A DNA stretch of 64,000 nt, taken from Bradymonadales bacterium (lineage in GTDB: Bacteria > Bdellovibrionota > UBA2394). The notes under the pieces are model-generated. The model ran no database searches. It saw only the letters and a program-made list of their open reading frames with translations, and was not told the DNA's origin. The number at the start of each line of letters is the position of its first letter. The stretch's first letter is position 1. The stretch spans positions 1 through 64,000 of the forward strand of contig REDG01000046.1 in assembly GCA_007693605.1 (NCBI GenBank). The letters run 5' to 3'. Of the stretch, positions 32,648 through 58,189 are shown piece after piece. A program made the translations under genes and the position numbers.

Positions 32648-33492
32648 TGCCAGGGCCTCACAAGATCAAGCAGATTCCAAAGAAGATAATCCAGTTGAAA
32701 GATTCCAACAAAAGCCCCGAAACAAAGAAAGGGACCGAAGGGAATTGGAAACCTTCGCCGCTTTCCCTTCGGCAAAGAAGCCAAAATGCCAAGACCAATC
32801 AGGGCTCCACTGGCGGCACCAATGACCACGCTCAATACCACTCCTTGCACTCCCAAAACCGAGCCCACCAAAGCCATGAGCTTCGCATCCCCAAGGCCCA
32901 ATCCTTCATCTCCGGTAATCCAATAAAACGAACGGCTTACAACCCACAAAAAAGAATATCCAAACACCGCTCCAAACAGACTCACCCAAAAGGGGTTTGC
33001 GACGGCCACGCCCAACCAAGGGGAATCAATCCAACTTCCCCCCGCCTGCAGCCCGAAACCCTCCGACACAAAAAGCGCCAAAAAAACAAAGAGAAAGCTT
33101 CCGCCCAAGTTGATCTCGTCGGGAATCATCTTCAGATCTAAGTCGATGAATGAGGCACAAATTAACAGACAAGACAAAATGCTGAACACCACAAAGACCT
33201 GGGACCATCCGTAATTGATCCACACGGCGAGAAAGATTGTGGCCGTGAGAAGCTCAATCGCAGCATAGCGCATACTAAAAGAATGACCGCACTTTAAGCA
33301 CCGACCCCTCGCCAAGAAGTAGCCAAAGATGGGCAAGTTCAAAAAAGCCGGAATCGGAGACCGACAAAACGAGCAGCGAGAGCTTGGCCGCACGATCGAT
33401 TTTCCCCTCGGCAATCGATAGATGACGACATTGAGAAAGCTCCCAATCACCGCCCCAAACACAAAAACGGCTCCCGCCGAAAAAACATCCAT
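32644..33492 (-). CDS. pilD: Prepilin leader peptidase / N-methyltransferase
   Basis: This 282-residue inner-membrane aspartyl protease cleaves and N-methylates prepilins. It has the cytoplasmic zinc-type Cys pairs CSFCRSPI and CLKCGHSF. The catalytic Asp motifs are FIDLDLKMIPDE and GLGLGDAKLMALVG, and there are about eight membrane helices. GAVIGSFLNVVIYRLPRG is typical of the N-terminus. It processes the two minor pilins encoded nearby and presumably the unseen major pilin. Confidence 0.95.
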   Translation of the reverse strand: MDVFSAGAVFVFGAVIGSFLNVVIYRLPRGKSIVRPSSRCSFCRSPIPAFLNLPIFGYFLARGRCLKCGHSFSMRYAAIELLTATIFLAVWINYGWSQVFVVFSILSCLLICASFIDLDLKMIPDEINLGGSFLFVFLALFVSEGFGLQAGGSWIDSPWLGVAVANPFWVSLFGAVFGYSFLWVVSRSFYWITGDEGLGLGDAKLMALVGSVLGVQGVVLSVVIGAASGALIGLGILASLPKGKRRRFPIPFGPFLCFGAFVGIFQLDYLLWNLLDLVRPWQ

Positions 33493-40671: not shown

Positions 40672-42082
40672 TCTTTCTCTCTTTCTTTTTCTCTTCTTTC
40701 TGTCGCTCAAGATGCCACCCTGGCCGCCGAAGAAGAAGCTCCATCGCCTTTCGGTCCATGAAACTCTGGCGCAAAAATGAGTCGTTAGCGGTATTCTCTA
40801 ACAACCTTCGCACCAAGTAAGACAGGCCCGGAAGCATTTCCCCCAGCGGACAATACTCTCGAAGCCTCAGCTTGCGCCTTAAAATGGCGTCCTTAAATGA
40901 ACCTGACATTCCATAGAGCATCTGAATCTCAAAAGAGTTTCGAGGAAGCTTCAACTCCTCAGCAAGCGCCAGGCAATAGGAAAGACTTCGAACATTGTGA
41001 GAGCCCGCTGCCATTTCGATCTTCGGATAGCTTCCCAACAGCAGCCTCGCACAAGACTCAAAGGCCTGATCTGACTCCCACTTCTCCGAAAACACAGGCG
41101 ACTCCCAATCATTTTGTTCTGCAATGATCGTCTCGTAATCCCAATAAGCCCCCTTCACAAGCCTGATCGTGAAGGGCGTTCCTCTTTCGGTCGCAAGTTG
41201 AATCCACTCTCGAACTTCTTCTTCGGCGCTCCGAAGATAGGCCTGGCAAACAATTCCGAAGTGCCGATAAGACTTAAACTCTGGCATCAAAATGAGCTGC
41301 CGAAAAACTTTTCTAGTCAGGGAGTTTAATGAAAACTGCTCCATATCGAAGTTGATGAAGACGCCTCGCTGCATCGCCAACCGCAAAACCGGAATCAAAC
41401 GAGCCTTTAACCTCTCGACGCTCGAATCAGTCGCCATGGGGTCGAGTAGGGCGTCAAAAGCAGAGAGCTTCAGTGAGACATTCACTTTCGGCACAGGCCC
41501 CAAGTCTGAAAAGTCAACCGGCTGAACCTCCGTCCAATTTAGAGACTCGTTTCCCAGTTGATCGATCAAATCTTCATATTGGGACTGGTAGTGATGACTC
41601 TCTTCATCAGAAACGACGGCCTCCCCCAGAATATCCAAAGTGAACCCGACTCCTGACGATCGGAGGTCCAAGACTTTGGGTAGAGCTTCTGTTGCGTTTC
41701 GCCCAACAATAAACAGATTCCCCATTTGCCGAACCTGTCGATCACTCAGCCTCATCAGCAGCTGCCGAAATAGAGGGAGCCGCAAGAGGCCCGAAACCAG
41801 GCTGAGCAAGCCCGGCCAAGACTCAACCGAAGGGGGTCGAGAAAGGTACTCTAGAAGATGCTGAAGTTTTTGACGGTCTGTGACCAAAACGGGCAAGACA
41901 TCCACAAATCGAAAGAGCTGGGTCTTGACCAGCGGATCTTTCATGGACAATTCCATGAATTTGTTCTGCCAAAAATTCCTGTTAAAGACTTTGAAAGCCC
42001 CGCCTCGGCTATCTCGAAAAATCTGTTGGCCGATCTCAATTGTCCGTGCTTCAATTCTATCTGAATCAAGAGGAGCTACCAT
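40646..42082 (-). CDS. Proline dehydrogenase
   Basis: This FAD-dependent enzyme of about 478 residues oxidises proline to pyrroline-5-carboxylate. PutA-type motifs: MKDPLVKTQLFRFVDVLPVL, NVSLKLSAFDALLDP, RLVKGAYWDYETI, AAGSHNVRSL, QMLYGMSGSFKDA and CPLGEMLPGLSYLVRRLLEN. No DNA-binding domain precedes it, so it is not a PutA repressor. The frame extends to 42124, but ATG 42082 is favoured. This start faces the divergent GGDEF gene start at the same base, so each leader must lie in the other gene's coding region. Confidence 0.9.
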   Translation of the reverse strand: MVAPLDSDRIEARTIEIGQQIFRDSRGGAFKVFNRNFWQNKFMELSMKDPLVKTQLFRFVDVLPVLVTDRQKLQHLLEYLSRPPSVESWPGLLSLVSGLLRLPLFRQLLMRLSDRQVRQMGNLFIVGRNATEALPKVLDLRSSGVGFTLDILGEAVVSDEESHHYQSQYEDLIDQLGNESLNWTEVQPVDFSDLGPVPKVNVSLKLSAFDALLDPMATDSSVERLKARLIPVLRLAMQRGVFINFDMEQFSLNSLTRKVFRQLILMPEFKSYRHFGIVCQAYLRSAEEEVREWIQLATERGTPFTIRLVKGAYWDYETIIAEQNDWESPVFSEKWESDQAFESCARLLLGSYPKIEMAAGSHNVRSLSYCLALAEELKLPRNSFEIQMLYGMSGSFKDAILRRKLRLREYCPLGEMLPGLSYLVRRLLENTANDSFLRQSFMDRKAMELLLRRPGWHLERQKEEKKKERKNGKDLKSL

Positions 42083-43623
42083 TGTTTTATGTCCCGTCTC
42101 AACGAGTTCTGTTTGTTCTAACATTCTGCGCCAGCCTCTTTCTGTTGGGGGGGGCCTACTTCCTAAACAAGGACCTCTCTCGCTTATATCAGCGACCTTC
42201 AGAGCAGCTCAAGGAAATCGCTGCACTCGCCACGAACCTAATCCCTCAACAGGAAATTGAAAACAGCTTAGAGACTAAAAATGAGCATAGTCCTTCTAGT
42301 CGACAGCTTCAGTCCACTCTCAACCAGCTAAAGGCAAATCTGCGACCTCAAATCGAAATCAGCGTTCTACATGACGATAGTGGCCAGTGGAGGGTTCTTC
42401 AATCCAGCTCTCCTAATTGGCGGATGGGAGATTTGCAGCCTCATTTGTCTGAGGCGGGCGACCTCGCCCTTCGCAATCGGCAACCCGTAGCGAGCGCTCT
42501 TGAAAGAGATGGTTCGAGATATTGGAGTCGGGTCTGGCAACCTCTCGATCTCAACGGGCTTGCCTTGGTTGTCGAGTCTGATGAGTCTGCCACCCAGTTT
42601 CAGGCTAGAAGCCTCTTGCTGAATTATTTGGCCATGGGAATTGTTTTGCTGCTTCTGAGTGGGCTGGTTTTCTTCTGGCTGTCGAGAAAACGGCTCGAAG
42701 AAGTGGGACTTCTTTCATCACTTTCAGAAAGACTCCTTTTGGATTCAGCTAAATCAATCTGCGTGATCAACCACCAGGGGGAGTGTGTTGCAACAAACCC
42801 AAACTTTGCGCAGCGACTTTGGACCGATCAAGAAAGCCTGCACAAACAGAATCTCTTCTCACCTGACTACTTTGGGCAAGTGACTGCGGGCTCGAAAACC
42901 AAAGCCCTCTCGCTGGAGTCTCTGTTGGCCATGCCTTCTAAGAGTCAGATTCTGAACCTCCAATCTGAGACGGGCGAGCAGTGCTTCGTAAAACTGTCCA
43001 TCGAAGAGCTGGAAGTGAGCGGACTGGAGTCAAAGCCATACTACTTGATAGAACTTGAGGCCGTAAGCCGCACCTCTTTGACCCAGTCGAAGAGTTCCGC
43101 CTGGGCCTACCCATCTGAAGAGGACTTTGATTTTGTGGATCAGCGGACCAAGCTTCCGAATCGAAGCTATTTGTTTCACGCCCTCAGTGCTCGCATGAAC
43201 TTTCTACAGAATATCGATTGTTCGATGATGTTGATCGAACTCGACCAGTTCACTCACTTTATCGAACTCTTCGGCAAGGAAACCGGTGAGGCCGCCCTAA
43301 AAGCTTGGGCTGAGTTTCTGCGGGGATATTTTCGCCAGTCGGACTTGGTCGTCCACTTTGAAGAGACTCGATTCTTGGTCGTACTCGAACAGACAGAAAG
43401 CAACCAGGCCCTACGAATTGCTCACAACCTAAAAAATTCCATGAAAGAGAGCCGGCATCAACTCATCCAGGGCATGAGCTTCAGTATCTCAGTGACCTCT
43501 TATCAAAAGCCTGAGTCGTTTCAAAGCTGGCTGGCCCGAAGTGAAATCGCTCTTCAAAGAGCTTCAAATCGAGGCTTTGGTCAGATTGAAGTTGACACTC
43601 CTTTGGCAGCTGGACCAGTCTAG
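42082..43623 (+). CDS. Membrane-bound PAS-GGDEF protein with degenerate active site
   Basis: This protein of about 513 residues starts TTG 42082, with AAGAGGAG (42068-42075) 6 bp upstream. Membrane helix one is at about 8-28, a periplasmic sensor region at 30-178, helix two at 179-200, a PAS-like domain at 214-326 and a GGDEF-fold domain at 351-513 (QRTKLPNRSYLFHAL, MMLIELDQF). The signature position reads HFEET (about 425-429), where GGDEF is expected. Diguanylate cyclase activity is therefore unlikely, and it may act as a c-di-GMP or protein-interaction sensor. Its last 89 bp are duplicated at 45791. Upstream in-frame TTG/GTG starts exist but lack a ribosome site. Confidence 0.78.
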   Translation: MFYVPSQRVLFVLTFCASLFLLGGAYFLNKDLSRLYQRPSEQLKEIAALATNLIPQQEIENSLETKNEHSPSSRQLQSTLNQLKANLRPQIEISVLHDDSGQWRVLQSSSPNWRMGDLQPHLSEAGDLALRNRQPVASALERDGSRYWSRVWQPLDLNGLALVVESDESATQFQARSLLLNYLAMGIVLLLLSGLVFFWLSRKRLEEVGLLSSLSERLLLDSAKSICVINHQGECVATNPNFAQRLWTDQESLHKQNLFSPDYFGQVTAGSKTKALSLESLLAMPSKSQILNLQSETGEQCFVKLSIEELEVSGLESKPYYLIELEAVSRTSLTQSKSSAWAYPSEEDFDFVDQRTKLPNRSYLFHALSARMNFLQNIDCSMMLIELDQFTHFIELFGKETGEAALKAWAEFLRGYFRQSDLVVHFEETRFLVVLEQTESNQALRIAHNLKNSMKESRHQLIQGMSFSISVTSYQKPESFQSWLARSEIALQRASNRGFGQIEVDTPLAAGPV

Positions 43624-50002: not shown

Positions 50003-51028
50003 ATGATTGTAGAGAGCACAGAAGCTTCAGAAAGCAGATTACTTAGCCAAGTCGCTCACGAGACAGAAGATTTCAACCAACTGCGACCCAAGCGCTTGGA
50101 GGACTTCATCGGGCAACGAAAGCTAAAAGAAAATTTGAGGGTGTTCATCGAAGCCGCGAAGATTCGGAAAGAGGCCCTGGATCATGTCTTGCTCTCTGGC
50201 CCGCCGGGTCTTGGAAAGACAAGCCTGTCTCATATCATTGCGAGAGAAATGGGCACGAACATTCGAGTCACCAGCGGCCCTGCCATTGAAAAGGCCGGCG
50301 ATCTTGCTGCAATTCTCACGCATTTAGAGGCTTACGATCTTGTCTTTATTGATGAGATTCACCGATTGCCTCGAACGGTGGAAGAGATTCTCTATCCGGC
50401 GATGGAAGACTTCAAACTGGATCTGACTGTTGGGGAAGGTCCGGCTGCGAGATCGCTTCGCTTGGACATTCCCCCCTTCACTTTAGTCGGGGCGACCACT
50501 CGAAGCGGAATGTTGACCTCTCCGCTTCGTTCGCGATTTGGCATTCCATTGCAGCTCGAGTTTTACACTCCAGACGAATTGACAGAGATTGTAAAACGCT
50601 CGGCTCAGATTCTTGGCATTGCGATTGAAGAAGAGGCGGCCTTCGAGATCGCCACAAGATCACGAAGCACCCCTCGCATTGCGAATCGCCTTCTGAAACG
50701 AGTACGAGATTTTGCTCAGACTCAGGGCCTAGACAAGATCACTCGCGGCTGCGCTGATCAGAGCCTTCTGAAGTTAGAGATTGATTCTCAGGGATGTGAC
50801 CCCATGGACAAGAAGTATCTTGGTTTACTGGTTGAGAGATTTCAGGGCGGCCCCGTTGGAATCGAAACCCTCAGCGCCTCTCTTCAAGAAGACCGAGAAA
50901 CTCTTGAAGACATTTACGAACCTTATCTGATGCAGGCGGGTTTTGTTTCGAGAACCTCTAGAGGTCGAGTCGCGACCGAGAAGGCTTATTCTCTTCTAGG
51001 AAGGAAGATGCCCAATAAACTCTTCTAG
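50003..51028 (+). CDS. ruvB: Holliday junction branch-migration ATPase RuvB
   Basis: This 341-residue AAA+ motor shows [18 protein letters not shown], Walker [18 protein letters not shown], Walker [36 protein letters not shown] and a C-terminal winged helix ([20 protein letters not shown]). GAGGGAG precedes the ATG. It is the last gene of yebC-ruvC-ruvA-ruvB. Confidence 0.96.
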
Positions 51029-51055
51029 TGGTCCAACCGGTAAATTGTTTCCGTA

Positions 51056-51099: not shown

Positions 51100-52053
51100 T
51101 TAGACTGCAAGATGAAGGTTGATTAGATCTTCTTCCCTAGGAGAGAGGTGCTCAAACTTCACGCCCCAATGTTTTTGATCTTTCTGGTAGATCAGTCGAG
51201 CGTAACCCCGAACCGGTTGCTTGTTTTGAAGCATCAGTGAAAAGTTGAATTCTTTCGGGGGAGAGTCTGCTTGAATCAAACAACCTCCTGCTGAAAGAGA
51301 CCTCACTCGCACATCCTGGGCGAAAAGACTGTCGAAAGAATTGCACATCATCGAATGGTTCACAGGCTTTCGTCTCCACCGACGGCGAGCCCTCGAGCTA
51401 CTTCTCTTTACAACCGAAGGCTTAGAGCTTGAAAAATCACGCCTCATTTTCTGAAGATAATCCCGAGCGATTTGATTCTGAGGTTGCTTCTCAAGAAGTT
51501 TTCTAAAACATTGAGCTGACTTCTCAAAGCTCTCTTGCTGAAAATACAAGGCCCCCATCAAAATCAGAGCGCGAGAATGGCTGGGATTTCGATAGATCAA
51601 TTCTCGACAGTATTTCATGACTTGATTCGCATTCTTGCTGGCATAGGCAGCATCTGAAGCCATCTCCAACTCTTCAATATTCAGGCTAGAAATGTCCTTC
51701 AGCTCCACCAGTTCAAGAAGCCTCTCGTAGTTCTTTGCTTTGTATGCCCCACTCAGGCTTTCAAATGGAGTGCTCGGCTGAAGCCTCTTTAACTGATCGA
51801 TCACCTTTGAGAGACCAGAGAATTCTCGATGAACAATCTCTTTCTGAGAACTCGGTCGATCCACAGAGAGAAACCAAGACTTCAAACTCTCAAGTGCCTT
51901 AAGACACTCCGCGTCTGAGGATTGAATGAGATCAATGAAAGCTGTTACAATTCCCTGAGCTTTCAGGTCTTTACGAAATTTCTGCACCGCATTTCCTTCC
52001 TGCTCCAGAATATCAAAATATTGCAAGAGATGGGGGGCTGGTGCCAGGAACAA
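51100..52053 (-). CDS. TPR-PilZ domain protein, last gene of the Tad-like operon
   Basis: This 317-residue protein has helical TPR-like repeats in the middle (about 110-205; HSRALILMGALYFQQESFEK is one) and a Lys/Arg/Ser-rich linker. A C-terminal PilZ domain follows, with RRRWRRKP (basic c-di-GMP motif) and VRSLSAGGCLIQ (the S-x-x-G-G element), ending YARLIYQKDQKHWGVKFEHL. No membrane helix. It could couple c-di-GMP levels to the secretion ATPase encoded upstream in the same operon (10 bp gap to the previous gene). Function is inferred from domains and context. Confidence 0.72.
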   Translation of the reverse strand: MFLAPAPHLLQYFDILEQEGNAVQKFRKDLKAQGIVTAFIDLIQSSDAECLKALESLKSWFLSVDRPSSQKEIVHREFSGLSKVIDQLKRLQPSTPFESLSGAYKAKNYERLLELVELKDISSLNIEELEMASDAAYASKNANQVMKYCRELIYRNPSHSRALILMGALYFQQESFEKSAQCFRKLLEKQPQNQIARDYLQKMRRDFSSSKPSVVKRSSSRARRRWRRKPVNHSMMCNSFDSLFAQDVRVRSLSAGGCLIQADSPPKEFNFSLMLQNKQPVRGYARLIYQKDQKHWGVKFEHLSPREEDLINLHLAV

Positions 52054-52063
52054 AAGTTACCAG

Positions 52064-52891
52064 TCATTTTGAAGCTCCAAAGCAGACCTGTTGAGGCCGC
52101 AATAGATCGCAGATCTCAGAAACTTCTCTTCGAAGCTCCAAGGCTCGACGAGAGTCTCTTTGGTCTATCCTCCATGCCTCCCAATATTTCTCTTCGGCGC
52201 GACGAAGAATCTCTGATCTAAAGACTCCAAAATCTTGAGGATAGTCAGAGAAAAGAAGCTTCCGAGCCGCTCCTAAGATATCTTCGCTCAAAATAAGCTG
52301 CGTGATCTCTTCTTCAATCAAGGCCTTTTCACGCGCTCGAAGAACTTTCTCTGGATGACAAAACTGCGCCGCTCTTAGACTGTGCTCAAGCTGGCCGAGC
52401 TCCGCAAGGGCGAGCCTAAAGTTTTTCTGCCGAAGAGCCTCTGAAAAAATCCTATCTGAACTTTGCCAAGCCTCTTGCCACTCGACGGACTGGCCACTGA
52501 GCCAGAGGTCGAATGAAGGGCAAGCAAACTCTTCTTTCGAACGAAGTGACGAACAAGAGAAAATCAAAACAAGTAAAAGTCCAATCAATGAGAAGCCAAG
52601 CATTCCGAAAGACCTGTGAGAGCTTGAAAAACTGAAAGGTCGCCAGTCCACCGCCAGACTTCCTAGTTTGAAGATATGGCCTGGGGGCCATCGCTCCCGA
52701 CTACCCGTCTGAAAGTTCTCGAACTCTTCCCTCTTAAAGTCCAGCCGGCCCAAAAGAGCTTCGGCTTCAGGAACTTGAAAATCACAACTCTTGTCCGATC
52801 CGATCAGTATGTCTCTTGATTGAAATATCTTTCGACGAAGTTTCTCGCTTCTCGAATCCCAATATCGAAGATAGATGAGTTTAGGAATCAC
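52064..52891 (-). CDS. FHA-like domain membrane protein of the Tad-like operon
   Basis: This 275-residue protein has an N-terminal FHA-like beta-sandwich (about 1-80; ILIGSDKSCDFQVPEAEALL), one membrane helix at about 95-113 (MLGFSLIGLLLVLIF), and a helical C-terminal region of about 160 residues outside. The FHA phosphothreonine-binding residues are not clearly conserved. It overlaps the upstream T2SF gene by 11 bp. In type III and Tad-like machines, FHA-plus-helix proteins form part of the inner-membrane ring, so a structural role is plausible. Confidence 0.6.
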   Translation of the reverse strand: MIPKLIYLRYWDSRSEKLRRKIFQSRDILIGSDKSCDFQVPEAEALLGRLDFKREEFENFQTGSRERWPPGHIFKLGSLAVDWRPFSFSSSHRSFGMLGFSLIGLLLVLIFSCSSLRSKEEFACPSFDLWLSGQSVEWQEAWQSSDRIFSEALRQKNFRLALAELGQLEHSLRAAQFCHPEKVLRAREKALIEEEITQLILSEDILGAARKLLFSDYPQDFGVFRSEILRRAEEKYWEAWRIDQRDSRRALELRREVSEICDLLRPQQVCFGASK

Positions 52892-53858
52892 CTGAAAACT
52901 CCCAGTTGAGCTGTAGTTCGTAGAAAGCGGGGCCCATCACAAGATACAGACATCCCGGAAAGCAAAGAAAAACGAGCGGCAATAGACTTAAAAGTGAGTC
53001 TTTTCTCAGTCGATACTCCGCCAATGCGAAGAGCCTCTGGCTCTCTTCCTGACTCATGCGATCTAAAAACTGAGCCACTCCCACTCCCGTCTTCATCGTC
53101 CATGAGATCCCTAAGAGAATTCGATCCCAGGGGCTGACCATCTTTGGCAAGCTTTCCTCCAGACGAGATTGAAAGCTTTGGGTCTGATTTTTTCGCTGAA
53201 TGCTTGCCAAACAAGAGGGTAAACGAAGCCCTTTGGCCATTTCGCCCCAGGCTGATTGAATATCCTCCCCGGCTTGAATCCGAATGGAAAGAAAGTGAAG
53301 GGCCGGCAGACCGCAAACCTCTTGCTGCAATCGTTTCTCACTTCGAATTGAAATCCGATGAAGCAGAAAGGCGCCAAGCCCCAAAGGAAAGAGCCCGTAC
53401 AGAAACAAGTCCCATCGCCCAAAGTGAAGAAAACTTCTGAAGAGATCTGGCAGTAAAATGGGCAAAACCACCGCCAGAACAAAGCAAAACAGAAGACAGA
53501 AGCCCCCTTGGGCGATGGGAATGAGAAAGAGATTCCGCTGAATCTCGCGTACTCGACTCAATTGAAAGATGAGATCCTGAAATTGAGAAAGGGCCTGAAT
53601 GAGAGAGCCCTGTCCCTTCTGCTGGATCAATAAGATTTCAAAGAAGATCGACTCTTCTTCTCTTAAAGCTTCAGCTCTTTTTTTCAAAAGAAAAGGCTGA
53701 GCCCCCATCGTCTCAATTTCGGCGACCCAACGACGAGCCAAAGGAGCTTGCTTTGAGTTGGACTGAGCCAGCCATTGCAGGGCAGCCACCCAGTCTCTCC
53801 CCGCCTGAAGACTCATCAGAAAAAGCTCGTTGAGTTGTTGAATCTCCTTTAGTTTCAT
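52881..53858 (-). CDS. Type II secretion F (TadB/TadC-like) inner-membrane platform protein
   Basis: This 325-residue protein has three hydrophobic segments: GGFCLLFCFVLAVVLPILL, LFLYGLFPLGLGAFLL and a C-terminal LLSLLPLVFLCFPGCLYLVMG. Between them lies the cytoplasmic T2SF domain with SIRIQAGEDIQSAWGEMAKG. A second, partial T2SF-like segment occupies the N-terminus. This is the Tad platform layout, but only one such gene is present; classical Tad systems have two (TadB and TadC). It overlaps the ATPase gene by 4 bp. Confidence 0.75.
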   Translation of the reverse strand: MKLKEIQQLNELFLMSLQAGRDWVAALQWLAQSNSKQAPLARRWVAEIETMGAQPFLLKKRAEALREEESIFFEILLIQQKGQGSLIQALSQFQDLIFQLSRVREIQRNLFLIPIAQGGFCLLFCFVLAVVLPILLPDLFRSFLHFGRWDLFLYGLFPLGLGAFLLHRISIRSEKRLQQEVCGLPALHFLSIRIQAGEDIQSAWGEMAKGLRLPSCLASIQRKNQTQSFQSRLEESLPKMVSPWDRILLGISWTMKTGVGVAQFLDRMSQEESQRLFALAEYRLRKDSLLSLLPLVFLCFPGCLYLVMGPAFYELQLNWEFSGDS

Positions 53859-55228
53859 GCCGCCCTGTCTCGCTCGAAGCCTCCAAAAACTCTTGAGAGC
53901 AAGAATTGTCGACCCTCTCTGCCCTTCAGTTCGGAAACTTCTGCGATTCGCCTTTGGTTGGAAGCATCCTTTTCACAAAAAATGACCACATCAATATTTC
54001 TGGAAATGAGTTCCATCAACTCCTGCTCCCCCAGACCCGGGCTGGCGAGCTGAACAAGACAGTAAAATCTCCATAAAGCGTCTCTGGCTGAGTTGGCATG
54101 AAGGCTGGTCAGACTCCCCCGATGGCCTGTGTTCAATGCCAACAACATATCCCAGGCTTCTGAACCCCGAACCTCACCAATTAGAATTCGATCTGGTCGC
54201 ATCCTTAAACTGTCTTTCACGAGCGCTCGAAGACCCCGATCTGAACTTGTTTGTAGGTAGCAGGTATTCACCCGCCCCCTCTGAAGTTCTGGAACATCCT
54301 CCATCACGATCAGCCTTTCGATGGGATTTAGATTCCCCACGAGAGCGCCAAGAAGAGTGGTCTTACCGGAGCCAGTCGCTCCGCAGACAAGAATGCTCTT
54401 TCTTCGCTCGAGATAGGACTGCAAGCATTTGAGCATTTCTCGATCAAACATCCCCTTGGTCATTAGCTCCTCTAGTTTCAAGGGCGAAACAAAGTGCTTT
54501 CTGATCGACAGATAGAGCTCCCCTTGAGTCAATGGGGGACCCAGCACATGACAGCGCGCCCTGGGCTCCATGATCTCGAATTCCACCGACGGGTTCTTCT
54601 CGTCAAAGACTTGAGAATATCGATTAAGAAGATTTTCAATATAAAGCTGATAGCTCTCCCTCTTCGAAAACTGAAGCTTCGACCTTTCAAGCTGACCTGA
54701 CTTTTCGACCCAGATTTCTTGATCACTCAAACAAAGAATGTCAGAGACCTCAGTGTCGGAGAGAAGCTTTTCGACTGGCCCCTTTAGTTTTAGTTCACTC
54801 CACTCCCGCGTAAGAAAGTCCTTCAACTCGTTCGGAATGGGGCCAGAGAAAAAGTGAAGTTTAGAGAGGCTTTGAATCACTTCTTCCATCTCTGTCTCGC
54901 TTCGACAGCTCATTTCTCTTTTGAAGTGATCACTTAAGAAACTTTGATGCGCATTGAGCAAGGCGGGGCCGTCTAGAATGCGAAAGCGGCAGCCTCCCCA
55001 CTCTAGATCTTGATCTCCATCCCGCTCCAACTCCAACTCACAACGACCCCAAAGATCCTGCAAAATCCAAACTCCATCCCTTTGATGAATGAGACCATGG
55101 AGGGGTCGAAAGTTCTTAGAGTTCAATCGAATGTGATTGGTGATGGCACTTCCGAGGCTGAGCCCCTCTCTTAAAAGATGAAAGCGTATCGGCGCCTCAC
55201 TCGCTTCAATGAACCGAAGCCATCTCAA
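53855..55228 (-). CDS. FHA-like/CpaF (TadA) secretion ATPase
   Basis: This 457-residue protein has an N-terminal FHA-like domain (about 18-90; LSLGSAITNHIRLNS and GVWILQDLWG). A CpaF/TadA ATPase follows: ILVCGATGSGKTTLLGALVG (Walker A), IVMEDVPELQ (Asp box), RPDRILIGEVRGSEAWDMLL (Walker B) and TSLHANSARDALWRF (His box). It would power pilus or pseudopilus assembly at the inner membrane. An FHA-like domain fused directly to the ATPase is unusual; in many Tad loci FHA proteins are separate. It overlaps the secretin gene and the T2SF gene by 4 bp each. Confidence 0.88.
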   Translation of the reverse strand: MRWLRFIEASEAPIRFHLLREGLSLGSAITNHIRLNSKNFRPLHGLIHQRDGVWILQDLWGRCELELERDGDQDLEWGGCRFRILDGPALLNAHQSFLSDHFKREMSCRSETEMEEVIQSLSKLHFFSGPIPNELKDFLTREWSELKLKGPVEKLLSDTEVSDILCLSDQEIWVEKSGQLERSKLQFSKRESYQLYIENLLNRYSQVFDEKNPSVEFEIMEPRARCHVLGPPLTQGELYLSIRKHFVSPLKLEELMTKGMFDREMLKCLQSYLERRKSILVCGATGSGKTTLLGALVGNLNPIERLIVMEDVPELQRGRVNTCYLQTSSDRGLRALVKDSLRMRPDRILIGEVRGSEAWDMLLALNTGHRGSLTSLHANSARDALWRFYCLVQLASPGLGEQELMELISRNIDVVIFCEKDASNQRRIAEVSELKGREGRQFLLSRVFGGFERDRAA

Positions 55229-56334
55229 TTCAAATCCTCTCTTTCCTTTTCAATTCTCCATGGCCCCTCTGGTTCGGTGGCTGTCACAAAGATATAGGCT
55301 TCGCTCTCTTGACGGCGATAGGATCGACTTTGCAACAAGTTGCCGAGCAGTGGAACCCTGTCAATTCCTGGAACCGCCTGGCGAAAGCCGCTCTTTGATA
55401 GCTGATAGAGCCCAGCAATGGCAGAAGTCTCTCGAAGACGAATTCGACTGTTTGTTGTCAGTCGTTTGTGTTGAATCAATGGAAGACCATCAATTCCCCC
55501 CGCGAGATCGGGCTCTCGAATGCTGGCCTCCACTTTGAGGTCAATCTGATCTTCGCCAACGAATCGGACTTCAAAGCCCAGATTCAGCCCGTACCGAATC
55601 CGCTCAATCGAAGACCTCTGCCGGCCTGAGAGTCTAACGGCATACTCTCCTCCGGCTTCGAACTGCGCCGGCAGTCCTTCTCTCGAAACAAGAGATTGTT
55701 TGTGATGAATCGTGGCGTCTCCCTCTGCGAGGGCCAGGTCGAGAAAACTCCCTATCGGATTGATGCCTTCAATTTGAAGGGCTGATGCCGTTCGAAGATG
55801 CAGGCTTGTTAAGAAATCAATCGGGCTACCGAATCGCAAGCCCAGGTCCTGTAAACGACTCTTCCGTATCTCAATGAAGGCCAGCTCCAGACGCACTTGA
55901 CGAGAGGGGGCTTTAGGCTGAATAGAAGGGCGGAGTTCCGAACGGATGGGAAGACCCCAGCCTCTGACTTCTCGGATCAAGCTCGGATCCTCTGAACTCA
56001 AATGAAGAACCCCAGCTTTGATCTGGAGTTCAGCCCTAGGAGAAATCTGGCGAACTGCCTCTCTCAGATCCTCTAGGAGCTCATTCGAAACATCCAGATC
56101 AAGTTCAATTTGGGAATTTGATCGCATCACAAACTCATGGAGAGTCTCTAGGTCTTGTGCTCGATAAACCTTCCCCCGAAAGCTCGCTCTCTCTTCATCA
56201 TTAAAAAATTCGAGGCCCGGTAGTCGTTCTGCAAAATTTCGAGCATCTCTCCACAGACCAGGGTTCTGATCTGAAATCCTTTGATCCCAGGCTTGAAGGG
56301 AAAAACTGACGCAAAGTAGGGCGAGAGCAAGCAT
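55225..56334 (-). CDS. Short secretin (CpaC/RcpA-like)
   Basis: This 369-residue outer-membrane channel protein has a signal peptide (MLALALLCVSFSLQAWD) and short N-domains (about 60-125). A secretin core follows, with RQVRLELAFIEIRKSRLQDLG, LPAQFEAGGEY and VPGIDRVPLLGNLLQSRSYR. It lacks the long N-terminal domains of PilQ or GspD, as CpaC/RcpA do. It is the first gene of the five-gene Tad-like operon and faces the divergent HtrA-like protease. Confidence 0.82.
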   Translation of the reverse strand: MLALALLCVSFSLQAWDQRISDQNPGLWRDARNFAERLPGLEFFNDEERASFRGKVYRAQDLETLHEFVMRSNSQIELDLDVSNELLEDLREAVRQISPRAELQIKAGVLHLSSEDPSLIREVRGWGLPIRSELRPSIQPKAPSRQVRLELAFIEIRKSRLQDLGLRFGSPIDFLTSLHLRTASALQIEGINPIGSFLDLALAEGDATIHHKQSLVSREGLPAQFEAGGEYAVRLSGRQRSSIERIRYGLNLGFEVRFVGEDQIDLKVEASIREPDLAGGIDGLPLIQHKRLTTNSRIRLRETSAIAGLYQLSKSGFRQAVPGIDRVPLLGNLLQSRSYRRQESEAYIFVTATEPEGPWRIEKEREDLN

Positions 56335-56608
56335 ACGATGAGACGACCTGCAGCTTCTGGGCCACCACTCAGACTAAGAAAATCCAGAAGGTTCTGGGGC
56401 CTATGCCCCCGAAAACCGGAAAGACTTCCGAAAAGCTCTCAGGGCTAGTGGTCCAACCACTAGCATCGAAGGACGAGGGGCAGAACGGAATAGCTCGTAG
56501 TGAACGGCTCACTTGGATGAGAACTTAAAAAATTCAATCTTTTCAGTGACTTCCAACTCAATTCCAGCTGCCGATGCCCTTTAAATGAATTTTGATAAAC
56601 TATAGACA
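56335..56608. promoter_or_regulatory. Divergent intergenic region between Tad-like operon and HtrA-like protease
   Basis: 274 bp with no gene. It must hold both promoters. It contains a perfect 8-bp stem GCTAGTGG-tccaa-CCACTAGC (56444-56464); 14 bp of it, CTAGTGGTCCAACC, also occur at the ruvB stop (51025-51038). No sigma54 site is evident. Confidence 0.4.
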
Positions 56609-58189
56609 ATGAGCGCCCAGGCCTGCCCTCGTTGTGGTGAACGACTTCGTCGAGAGGCGCGACAATGTAGACATTGCTTAGAAAATGTCTCGCTTGAGGC
56701 CTGGCTCAAAAGACCACTCTCCGACCGAGAGGCCTACGCCTTCTTTCGAGGCTGGCAGAACCTGCATTACGAGAATGCTGAGAAGGTCAATTGGAGCGAC
56801 TACTCCAGCGCCAAAAGAGAGTTGAGCTCTCCACCAAAGAGGGCTCTCGTGTCTGAACTTTCGCTGGCTCAGTTTGAGGATTTTGAGAGCCGATTTTCAG
56901 ACTACCCCATTGAAAAACGAGCAAAGATCGTTTCCAGCCCCGAGTTGGAGCCAAAGACTTCTAAGCCGTCTCAAGTCTATCGAGTTTTGGTGGGTGTAGC
57001 CGCAGTATCTCTTATCATTGTGTCTGCTCTTGTCTGGAGTGAGCGACTGTCGGAAGAGGCTCCTCGAACGGAGCTGTCGCAGAGTTCGGGGCAGGACTTT
57101 GAGTTTCGTTTTGATCTTCAGCCCGAAGCCGAAACCAAGACCCGCGAGCCAGTTCATCACCAAGAGCCCAGTCTCATTCCCTCTCCGGTTGATCCCCAGG
57201 TTCAAATTGAGAGAGCTCTAAACTCCACCGTCTTCATTCGAGATGCCGGAGGTCTAGGCTCCGGATTTTTCATCTCCGCCGACGGTCATCTGCTCACCAA
57301 CTACCATGTGATCGAAAAAATGGAGTCTCCAAGAGTCATTCTGCGAGATGGGAGGGAGTTTCGAGGAGAAGTCTTGGCAAGGGATCAAAGTCGAGACTTA
57401 GCCCTCCTAAAAGTTCCCGCCCACGGGCTGAGCTACCTCCGCATGGGGGATGCTCATCGCCTCTACCCCGGAGAAAGCGTACTAACGATCGGAAATCCTG
57501 CTGGCCTGAGTTTTACACTCACCAAAGGGGTTGTCAGCTTTGTTGGTCGACCCATTGGCTCTGTTCTCTATATTCAAACCGACTCCGCGATCAACCCCGG
57601 AAACAGTGGCGGCCCGATGATCAATCAAAACTTCGAAGTGGTTGGAGTCAACACCCTAACGGCAAGAGTTGAGAAAGGAATCTCTTTCTCCGTACCCATC
57701 AACTACGCCTATCATGGAATCGCCTCTGGGCTCGGAGACTACCCCAAAGACGCTCCCCCTTTTCAGAATGCCCCAAACTCAGGGAGATCTATCGCTTCAA
57801 ACGATCCCAGGGCCCCAGGCTCTAGCAGTGATATCCCCTACGAGAGAGAACTGTTTCAATTGCAGAACCAAGCAGAACAGCGCATTCAAGAGCTTAAGAG
57901 ACGGGCACGAGGCCTCACATCGCAAGCGGTTCAATTGCACCAAGATCTTCAGAAGAGTCGAATTCTTCATGAGAGACAAAGACTGCAATCTCAGCTCAAA
58001 GAGACAGAGACTGAAATTGAAAGGATCAGCCGAGAGGTCACCCAAGAGCGCATTCGCTTCATTCGACGAGTAGTGGCCGTTTTACAACGGCAACTGGGAG
58101 ACTCCAATCTGATAGCCTATCGACAAGAAATTCAGTCGAGAATTCAGGAGCTTGAACAACAGCGACGCACTCTCGAAATGAATCTATAG
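56609..58189 (+). CDS. Membrane-anchored HtrA-like serine protease with zinc ribbon and coiled coil
   Basis: This 526-residue protein has an N-terminal zinc ribbon (CPRCGERLRREARQCRHC) in the cytoplasm and one membrane helix at about 128-150 (VLVGVAAVSLIIVSALVW). A trypsin-like S1C protease domain follows, with catalytic His in LLTNYHVIEKM, Asp in SRDLALLKVP and Ser in NPGNSGGPMI. A C-terminal coiled coil of about 115 residues replaces the usual PDZ domain. It is likely an inner-membrane protease facing the periplasm, perhaps in quality control or signalling across the membrane. The domain combination is uncommon. Confidence 0.82.
   Translation: MSAQACPRCGERLRREARQCRHCLENVSLEAWLKRPLSDREAYAFFRGWQNLHYENAEKVNWSDYSSAKRELSSPPKRALVSELSLAQFEDFESRFSDYPIEKRAKIVSSPELEPKTSKPSQVYRVLVGVAAVSLIIVSALVWSERLSEEAPRTELSQSSGQDFEFRFDLQPEAETKTREPVHHQEPSLIPSPVDPQVQIERALNSTVFIRDAGGLGSGFFISADGHLLTNYHVIEKMESPRVILRDGREFRGEVLARDQSRDLALLKVPAHGLSYLRMGDAHRLYPGESVLTIGNPAGLSFTLTKGVVSFVGRPIGSVLYIQTDSAINPGNSGGPMINQNFEVVGVNTLTARVEKGISFSVPINYAYHGIASGLGDYPKDAPPFQNAPNSGRSIASNDPRAPGSSSDIPYERELFQLQNQAEQRIQELKRRARGLTSQAVQLHQDLQKSRILHERQRLQSQLKETETEIERISREVTQERIRFIRRVVAVLQRQLGDSNLIAYRQEIQSRIQELEQQRRTLEMNL

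Follow-up and report, generated by a model that had tools for sequence, protein, structure and literature searches.

The window analysed here, a stretch of 64,000 nucleotides from a Bradymonadales bacterium of the phylum Bdellovibrionota (positions 1 to 64,000 of contig REDG01000046.1, GenBank assembly GCA_007693605.1), carries a compact operon for a secretin, an ATPase with an FHA-like domain, a platform protein, a membrane protein with an FHA fold and a TPR-PilZ protein. This operon is probably a second, streamlined core of the Tad lineage (type IVc filaments), consisting of a motor and an outer-membrane pore, whose pilins are borrowed from elsewhere. Its parts follow the canonical succession of secretin, tadA and tadB-tadC, are conserved along with their domain make-up, and are accompanied by a bitopic FHA-fold protein. 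By content the operon is a variant of the Tad lineage with three departures: it does not have a pair of platform genes, it has no pilins, and TadZ and CpaB are absent from the locus.

Composition of the operon

The five open reading frames (ORFs) described in the original prediction were all found in their place, tightly packed in a single minus-strand run from 56334 to 51100 (Table 1). The secretin and ATPase genes overlap by 4 bp, as do the ATPase and platform genes; the platform gene overlaps that of the FHA membrane protein by 11 bp, and the TPR-PilZ gene starts 10 bp downstream of the latter. Matches to the Pfam families Secretin, T2SSE and PilZ were above cut-off, whereas no significant family was matched by the platform or the FHA membrane protein. 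The description of the operon as Tad-like and divergent was borne out by its Tad-type secretin, its CpaF-type ATPase and the TadB- and TadC-like halves of its platform. The contig that includes the window (C32) belongs to an assembly of 2.19 Mb in 79 contigs, which is 90% complete.

The secretin is indeed short. Pfam showed the Secretin domain only, and no pil_N/N0 domain was detected in its 369 residues. Its profile was closest in the PDB to 8jvb and to the Tad secretin RcpA (8odn, 1.7e-27), and by this match it is of the RcpA type found in Tad systems. For the ATPase, the best PDB profile matches were CpaF structures (1.8e-78), followed by VirB11 (1e-38). The match to TIGR03819 (1.4e-61) fell below the cut-off of that model, and the match to GspE/PilB was far weaker than that to CpaF, unlike what is expected for ATPases of type II secretion systems (T2SS) or type IVa pili. 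An alignment of the family ATPases showed that the Walker A motif GATGSGKTT, IGEVRG and GHRGSLTSLHAN are intact, and that 7 residues are missing from the window's ATPase directly before LRALV. As mapped by alignment, this gap probably corresponds to the extended pore loop of CpaF, which is predicted to contact the platform (PMC12019362).

The ATPase tree was split with a support of 97/99.9. On one side were the ATPases of the window's family (f1), those of a related unit in family f7 and those of two secretin-ATPase pairs (G328 and bin.161); on the other were the phylum's Tad, orphan and FHA-pair ATPases, including the TadZ-TadA protein of the window's own genome. A single clade made of the f1 and f7 ATPases alone was not recovered, nor was it rejected (p-AU 0.10).

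Several other CpaF-type ATPases were seen in the phylum. An orphan one with a degenerate FHA-like N-terminus lies on contig C13 of the same genome (L020:9373-10650), near ATP synthase genes and adjoining a matrixin-like protease gene. Another, found outside pilus operons (L159:9399-10559, L194-L218), is kept across several families, often near a gene for a 92-residue protein and in several genomes near enolase. Family f4 has an operon (L220:8697-12538, L222) for a secretin, an FHA-CpaF ATPase with a canonical FHA domain and an FHA sigma-54 activator.

Table 1. Genes of the operon and two further genes of the window
Feature	Position	Strand	Evidence and remarks
Short secretin, 369 aa	55225..56334	-	Pfam Secretin 1.5e-20; signal-peptide-like N-terminus; rcpA/cpaC/kilC-like
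CpaF/TadA-type ATPase with degenerate N-terminal FHA-like domain, 457 aa	53855..55228	-	Pfam T2SSE 2.6e-37
Platform protein, 325 aa, three transmembrane helices, two six-helix T2SSF bundles	52881..53858	-	AlphaFold2, Foldseek, hhalign
Single-pass inner-membrane protein with N-terminal FHA-fold domain, 275 aa	52064..52891	-	AlphaFold2, Foldseek, transmembrane scan
TPR and PilZ protein, 317 aa, accessory	51100..52053	-	Pfam PilZ 9.8e-07
Zinc-ribbon, transmembrane, trypsin-2 protease; divergent, conserved neighbour only	56609..58189	+	Pfam Trypsin_2 7.9e-33
Prepilin peptidase (Peptidase_A24), far from the operon	32791..33180	-	Sole match found in the genome assembly

The platform protein and the FHA-like domains

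An oddity of the Tad pilus is its two half-size platform proteins, explained as the outcome of a gene split. Instead of two genes with one T2SSF domain each, the operon has one gene with two T2SSF bundles; the prediction of a single platform is therefore right as to the gene, but this gene holds two domains, probably TadB and TadC fused. An AlphaFold2 model built from five sequences (pLDDT 84.5) shows two six-helix bundles in succession and three long helices in the membrane. Its only Foldseek match with an E-value below 0.001 was the whole-length PilC model 3jc8_Ca (probability 1.00, TM-score 0.40, a score at which the modelled overall arrangement is different); the cytoplasmic domains of EpsF and OutF came lower in the list, with weaker E-values. 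PDB sequence searches with the profiles of the platform and of the FHA membrane protein gave no meaningful match.

In its two bundles, three transmembrane helices and whole-length fold match, the platform resembles the tandem GspF/PilC platforms of T2SS and type IVa pili, whereas in sequence its halves are closer to TadB and TadC. By hhalign, the N-terminal half matched TadB (83%, 8.6e-6), then TadC (50%, 1.6e-4) and GspF/PilC (32%, 4.8e-4), and the C-terminal half matched TadC (97%, 3.4e-11) and hardly TadB (2.5%, 0.019). These alignments support a TadB-like N-terminal half moderately and a TadC-like C-terminal half strongly. The labels TadB and TadC follow the position of the genes and the annotation published for Bdellovibrio; they are consistent with the canonical order of genes in one Nocardioides tadA-tadB-tadC locus.

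The order of the halves is that of a tadA-tadB-tadC operon and the opposite of that in unsplit archaeal platforms, where the TadC-like part comes first and the TadB-like part second (Denise et al., PMC6668835). This favours a re-fusion, and the protein is best read, most simply, as tadB and tadC joined again after their ancient split. If true, a natural and maintained TadB-TadC fusion beside a CpaF motor would give independent support to the proposal that CpaG and CpaH work as one PilC-like unit (PMC12019362), and would offer a simpler object for structural work. No report of such a fusion was found in a search of the available literature, which is weak evidence of novelty.

Two FHA-like domains had been predicted, and they fared differently. 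That of the membrane protein was backed by structure prediction: the AlphaFold2 model (pLDDT 81) has an N-terminal beta-sandwich, and Foldseek placed FHA domains on top and MxiG/PrgH lower, with probabilities up to 1.00 and modest E-values of at least 0.004. A single transmembrane helix at about residues 95-117 is followed by a helical C-terminal domain with conserved cysteines, periplasmic by topology. The protein is like SctD (MxiG/PrgH) of type III secretion systems in its cytoplasmic FHA fold, single transmembrane helix and periplasmic domain; it differs in that the periplasmic part is helical, and the likeness is one of fold, without demonstrated sequence homology. The domain of the ATPase is a weak profile match only (E 2e-4, probability 46%; Pfam 12.7 bits, below threshold). 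Fusions of FHA and CpaF are already known from class III CpaF (PMC12019362) and KilF (PMC8460266). The operon ATPase may resemble class III CpaF in its N-terminal FHA-like domain, in which the phosphothreonine contacts are lost.

Alignments against a canonical FHA set showed that the GR and SxxH phosphothreonine contacts are absent from both FHA-like domains in each of the five family genomes, which speaks against phospho-dependent control and makes a structural, phospho-independent role of these domains more likely. The proposed control by cyclic di-GMP (c-di-GMP) fared no better. The TPR-PilZ gene stands beside the operon in only two of the five genomes, the window's and G004, and homologues occur elsewhere in G004 and G002; the protein is thus an accessory and not part of the core. 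Its PilZ domain keeps RxxxR and has SxSxxG in place of D/NxSxxG, the D/N being replaced by S. Neither c-di-GMP nor FHA phospho-control is supported as a core feature of the machine.

Pilins, the Tad locus and rival readings

The prediction that the operon lacks a pilin, a prepilin peptidase and TadZ was confirmed by gene map, Pfam and scans. No pilin, pseudopilin or peptidase was found within the operon or its flanks in the five genomes, and a motif scan of the same genomes, which misses pilins without an E5-type motif, showed no pilin-like ORF nearby. Neither the pilin scan of the window and flanks nor the Flp, TadE and TadG profiles revealed an Flp major pilin or TadE/F/G at the operon locus, and TadZ and CpaB/RcpC were not found there by gene map and Pfam. 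Measured against the generic model of a type IV filament cluster (Denise et al. 2019), the operon has the ATPase and the platform and lacks the major pilin.

A full Tad locus is nevertheless present elsewhere, on contig C13: it comprises TadC, three FHA proteins, Flp, TadE, TadG, CpaB, a TadZ-TadA fusion, TadB and a secretin that has BON and pil_N domains. The existence of such a locus in the genome is a point the original prediction had counted against itself, but this objection holds only in half, as C13 is equipped with a secretin, an ATPase and two platforms of its own. Since C13 is complete, the operon is an additional machine from the Tad lineage, and the idea that operon and C13 are two halves of one split Tad locus was rejected. 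Matches to the Flp, TadE and TadG profiles in this genome were confined to C13, which may supply pilins to the operon machine. The single prepilin peptidase match of the assembly also lies in the window (Table 1).

Compared with the Tad/type IVc core RcpA-TadA-TadB-TadC (CpaC, CpaF, CpaG and CpaH of Caulobacter), the operon has the same gene order, a secretin, a CpaF-type ATPase and platform halves that match TadB and TadC. It differs in that TadB and TadC are apparently fused, in having an FHA-fold membrane protein, and in lacking TadZ, CpaB, pilins, TadE/F/G and the peptidase. The proposed machine would work as follows. A CpaF hexamer would drive the fused TadBC platform, present as a trimer, and the FHA-fold protein would serve as an inner-membrane scaffold that joins ATPase and secretin, comparable to CpaB/TadZ or GspL/PilMNO, through contacts that need no phosphothreonine. 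A short filament or pseudopilus would be polymerised from subunits encoded elsewhere and would exit via the small secretin. These subunits, of which Flp, TadE and TadG of C13 are the first to consider, would be processed by the one prepilin peptidase; the TPR-PilZ protein would be an optional add-on. Bdellovibrionota is a phylum of predators such as Bdellovibrio. That the machine is used to contact or prey on other cells is no more than a guess, drawn from the phylum and by analogy with Kil of Myxococcus xanthus (PMC8460266, PMC12075869).

Several points weigh against this proposal. Filament assembly is only inferred, because no filament subunit was linked to the operon, and the scaffold role and the FHA contacts are putative. 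An FHA-FHA profile comparison gave 0.9%. The TadB match of the platform's N-terminal half comes from 5 versus 6 sequences and exceeds that to TadC only modestly. A gap in the assembly could hide a pilin gene, and the fast evolution of the operon (see below) may mean relaxed constraint.

The same absence of pilins would suit a Tad-derived secretion or export machine that needs none: its ATPase and platform would handle a substrate of the periplasm or membrane, with the secretin as the way out. Such a trans-envelope machine would have branched off from type IVc pili within a phylum of predators, and would combine a re-fused TadB-TadC platform with a scaffold of FHA fold. It would agree with the lack of pilin, pseudopilin and peptidase at the locus in five genomes, with the confinement of the Flp, TadE and TadG matches to the Tad locus, and with platform, ATPase and secretin being maintained nevertheless. 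We regard it as unlikely, because pairs of a GspE/CpaF ATPase and a platform are known only in pilin-based action, the universal core of these systems being pilin, peptidase, ATPase and platform (PMC10191384), and because peptidase and pilins are present in trans. The related locus of G328 (L219:2228-10893), with a response regulator-kinase, a secretin and a CpaF ATPase, has TadE/TadG-like and RcpC-like ORFs upstream of the secretin and ATPase genes, all below threshold; such minor-pilin-type ORFs favour a filament over a pilin-free device. Whether motor-platform-pore sets without pilins of their own, standing beside a complete Tad locus, share pilins or act on something else is the question raised by this operon.

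Compared by published description, the Kil system of Myxococcus, a Tad system for contact-dependent killing, shares with the operon a short secretin without N0 (KilC) and FHA-domain proteins, which are over-represented; its ATPase KilF is an FHA-ATPase fusion, as the operon ATPase may be (PMC8460266). That the operon is the Bdellovibrionota version of Kil is nevertheless improbable. Kil has two platforms (KilG and KilH), CpaB (KilB) and pilins, whereas the operon combines the two platforms in one apparently fused protein and is without CpaB and pilins, and the ATPase tree sets it apart from the TadZ-TadA clade. Moreover, the phylum's equivalent of Kil/Tad, the Bdellovibrio loci Bd0109-0119 and the tadC operon Bd0470-0474 (PMC5430801, PMC6561027), belongs to the same machine lineage as the operon but corresponds by gene content to C13, with TadZ-TadA, Flp, CpaB, two platforms and FHA proteins.

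The genome also appears to hold T2SS-like (C61) and type IVa-like pilus (C35 and the window) operons, as read from position and sequence without a full scan. With the Tad locus, these would be possible hosts for the operon as a swap-in module, that is, an alternative motor and not a separate machine. This we consider highly improbable, for the operon encodes, besides an ATPase, an outer-membrane pore and a platform.

Conservation and surroundings of the operon

The first four genes, with intact ORFs, were found in the same order and place, adjoining ruvCAB, in every one of the family's five genomes, which represent five genera. Such synteny shows that the operon is no chance assembly, and the predicted conservation holds for these four genes, while the fifth, for TPR-PilZ, is kept at the locus in two genomes only. 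Core proteins of the relatives are 24-40% identical to those of the window. The profile of the FHA membrane protein matched only 5 of 369 phylum genomes, namely the five of the family. The platform profile scored above 450 bits within the family and at most 62 bits elsewhere, the weak outside matches being to the C-terminal part of apparent TadC proteins.

The operon evolves fast: identity to G001 is 29-40% for its genes, versus 64% for TadC and 68% for RuvB. This divergence, the missing pilins, the degenerate FHA contacts and the residues missing from the window's ATPase at its probable pore loop could mean that the operon is what is left of a second Tad locus, decaying and of little function. 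We consider this improbable, in view of the intact ORFs, the order and place kept in five of five genera, and the catalytic motifs and gene overlaps kept at 24-40% identity. A related unit is moreover kept in family f7, reduced to the three genes for a secretin, an ATPase without FHA and a platform (L028, L161, L162, L160), though one of these four copies (L160) is in poor shape and reads as broken. A response-regulator gene lies upstream of this unit in L028 and L161. The three f7 platform sequences allowed no TadB or TadC assignment of the N-terminal half.

On the secretin side, homologues of the trypsin-2 protease occur on the same flank in G001, G002 and G003, where the far flank is covered. 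This protease is fast-evolving like the operon (34% identity to G001), and its protease region alone matches the reverse-transcriptase-protease model of PADLOC, which gave nothing relevant for the operon itself. In G004, a gene for a GGDEF protein adjoins the secretin gene (L027:15333-16829) and is followed by the contig end; its window homologue (42040-43623) lies some 12 kb away from the secretin gene. In three genomes of the family, a gene for a zinc carboxypeptidase (M14) is divergent from that of the secretin (L024:5961-7382, L025:14162-15616 and L026:13420-14907); it is absent from the operon site in the window and G004.

The 14-bp sequence GGTTGGACCACTAG is found on both sides of the operon (51025-51038 and 56445-56458). 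It has 23 exact copies in this genome and none in the four other genomes of the family. The operon as a mobile unit bounded by these repeats was rejected, since its synteny is family-wide and the repeat is a dispersed element of one genome out of five. Some copies form close inverted pairs, as in an element resembling a miniature inverted-repeat transposable element with the end AATTTACCGGTTGGACCACTAG.

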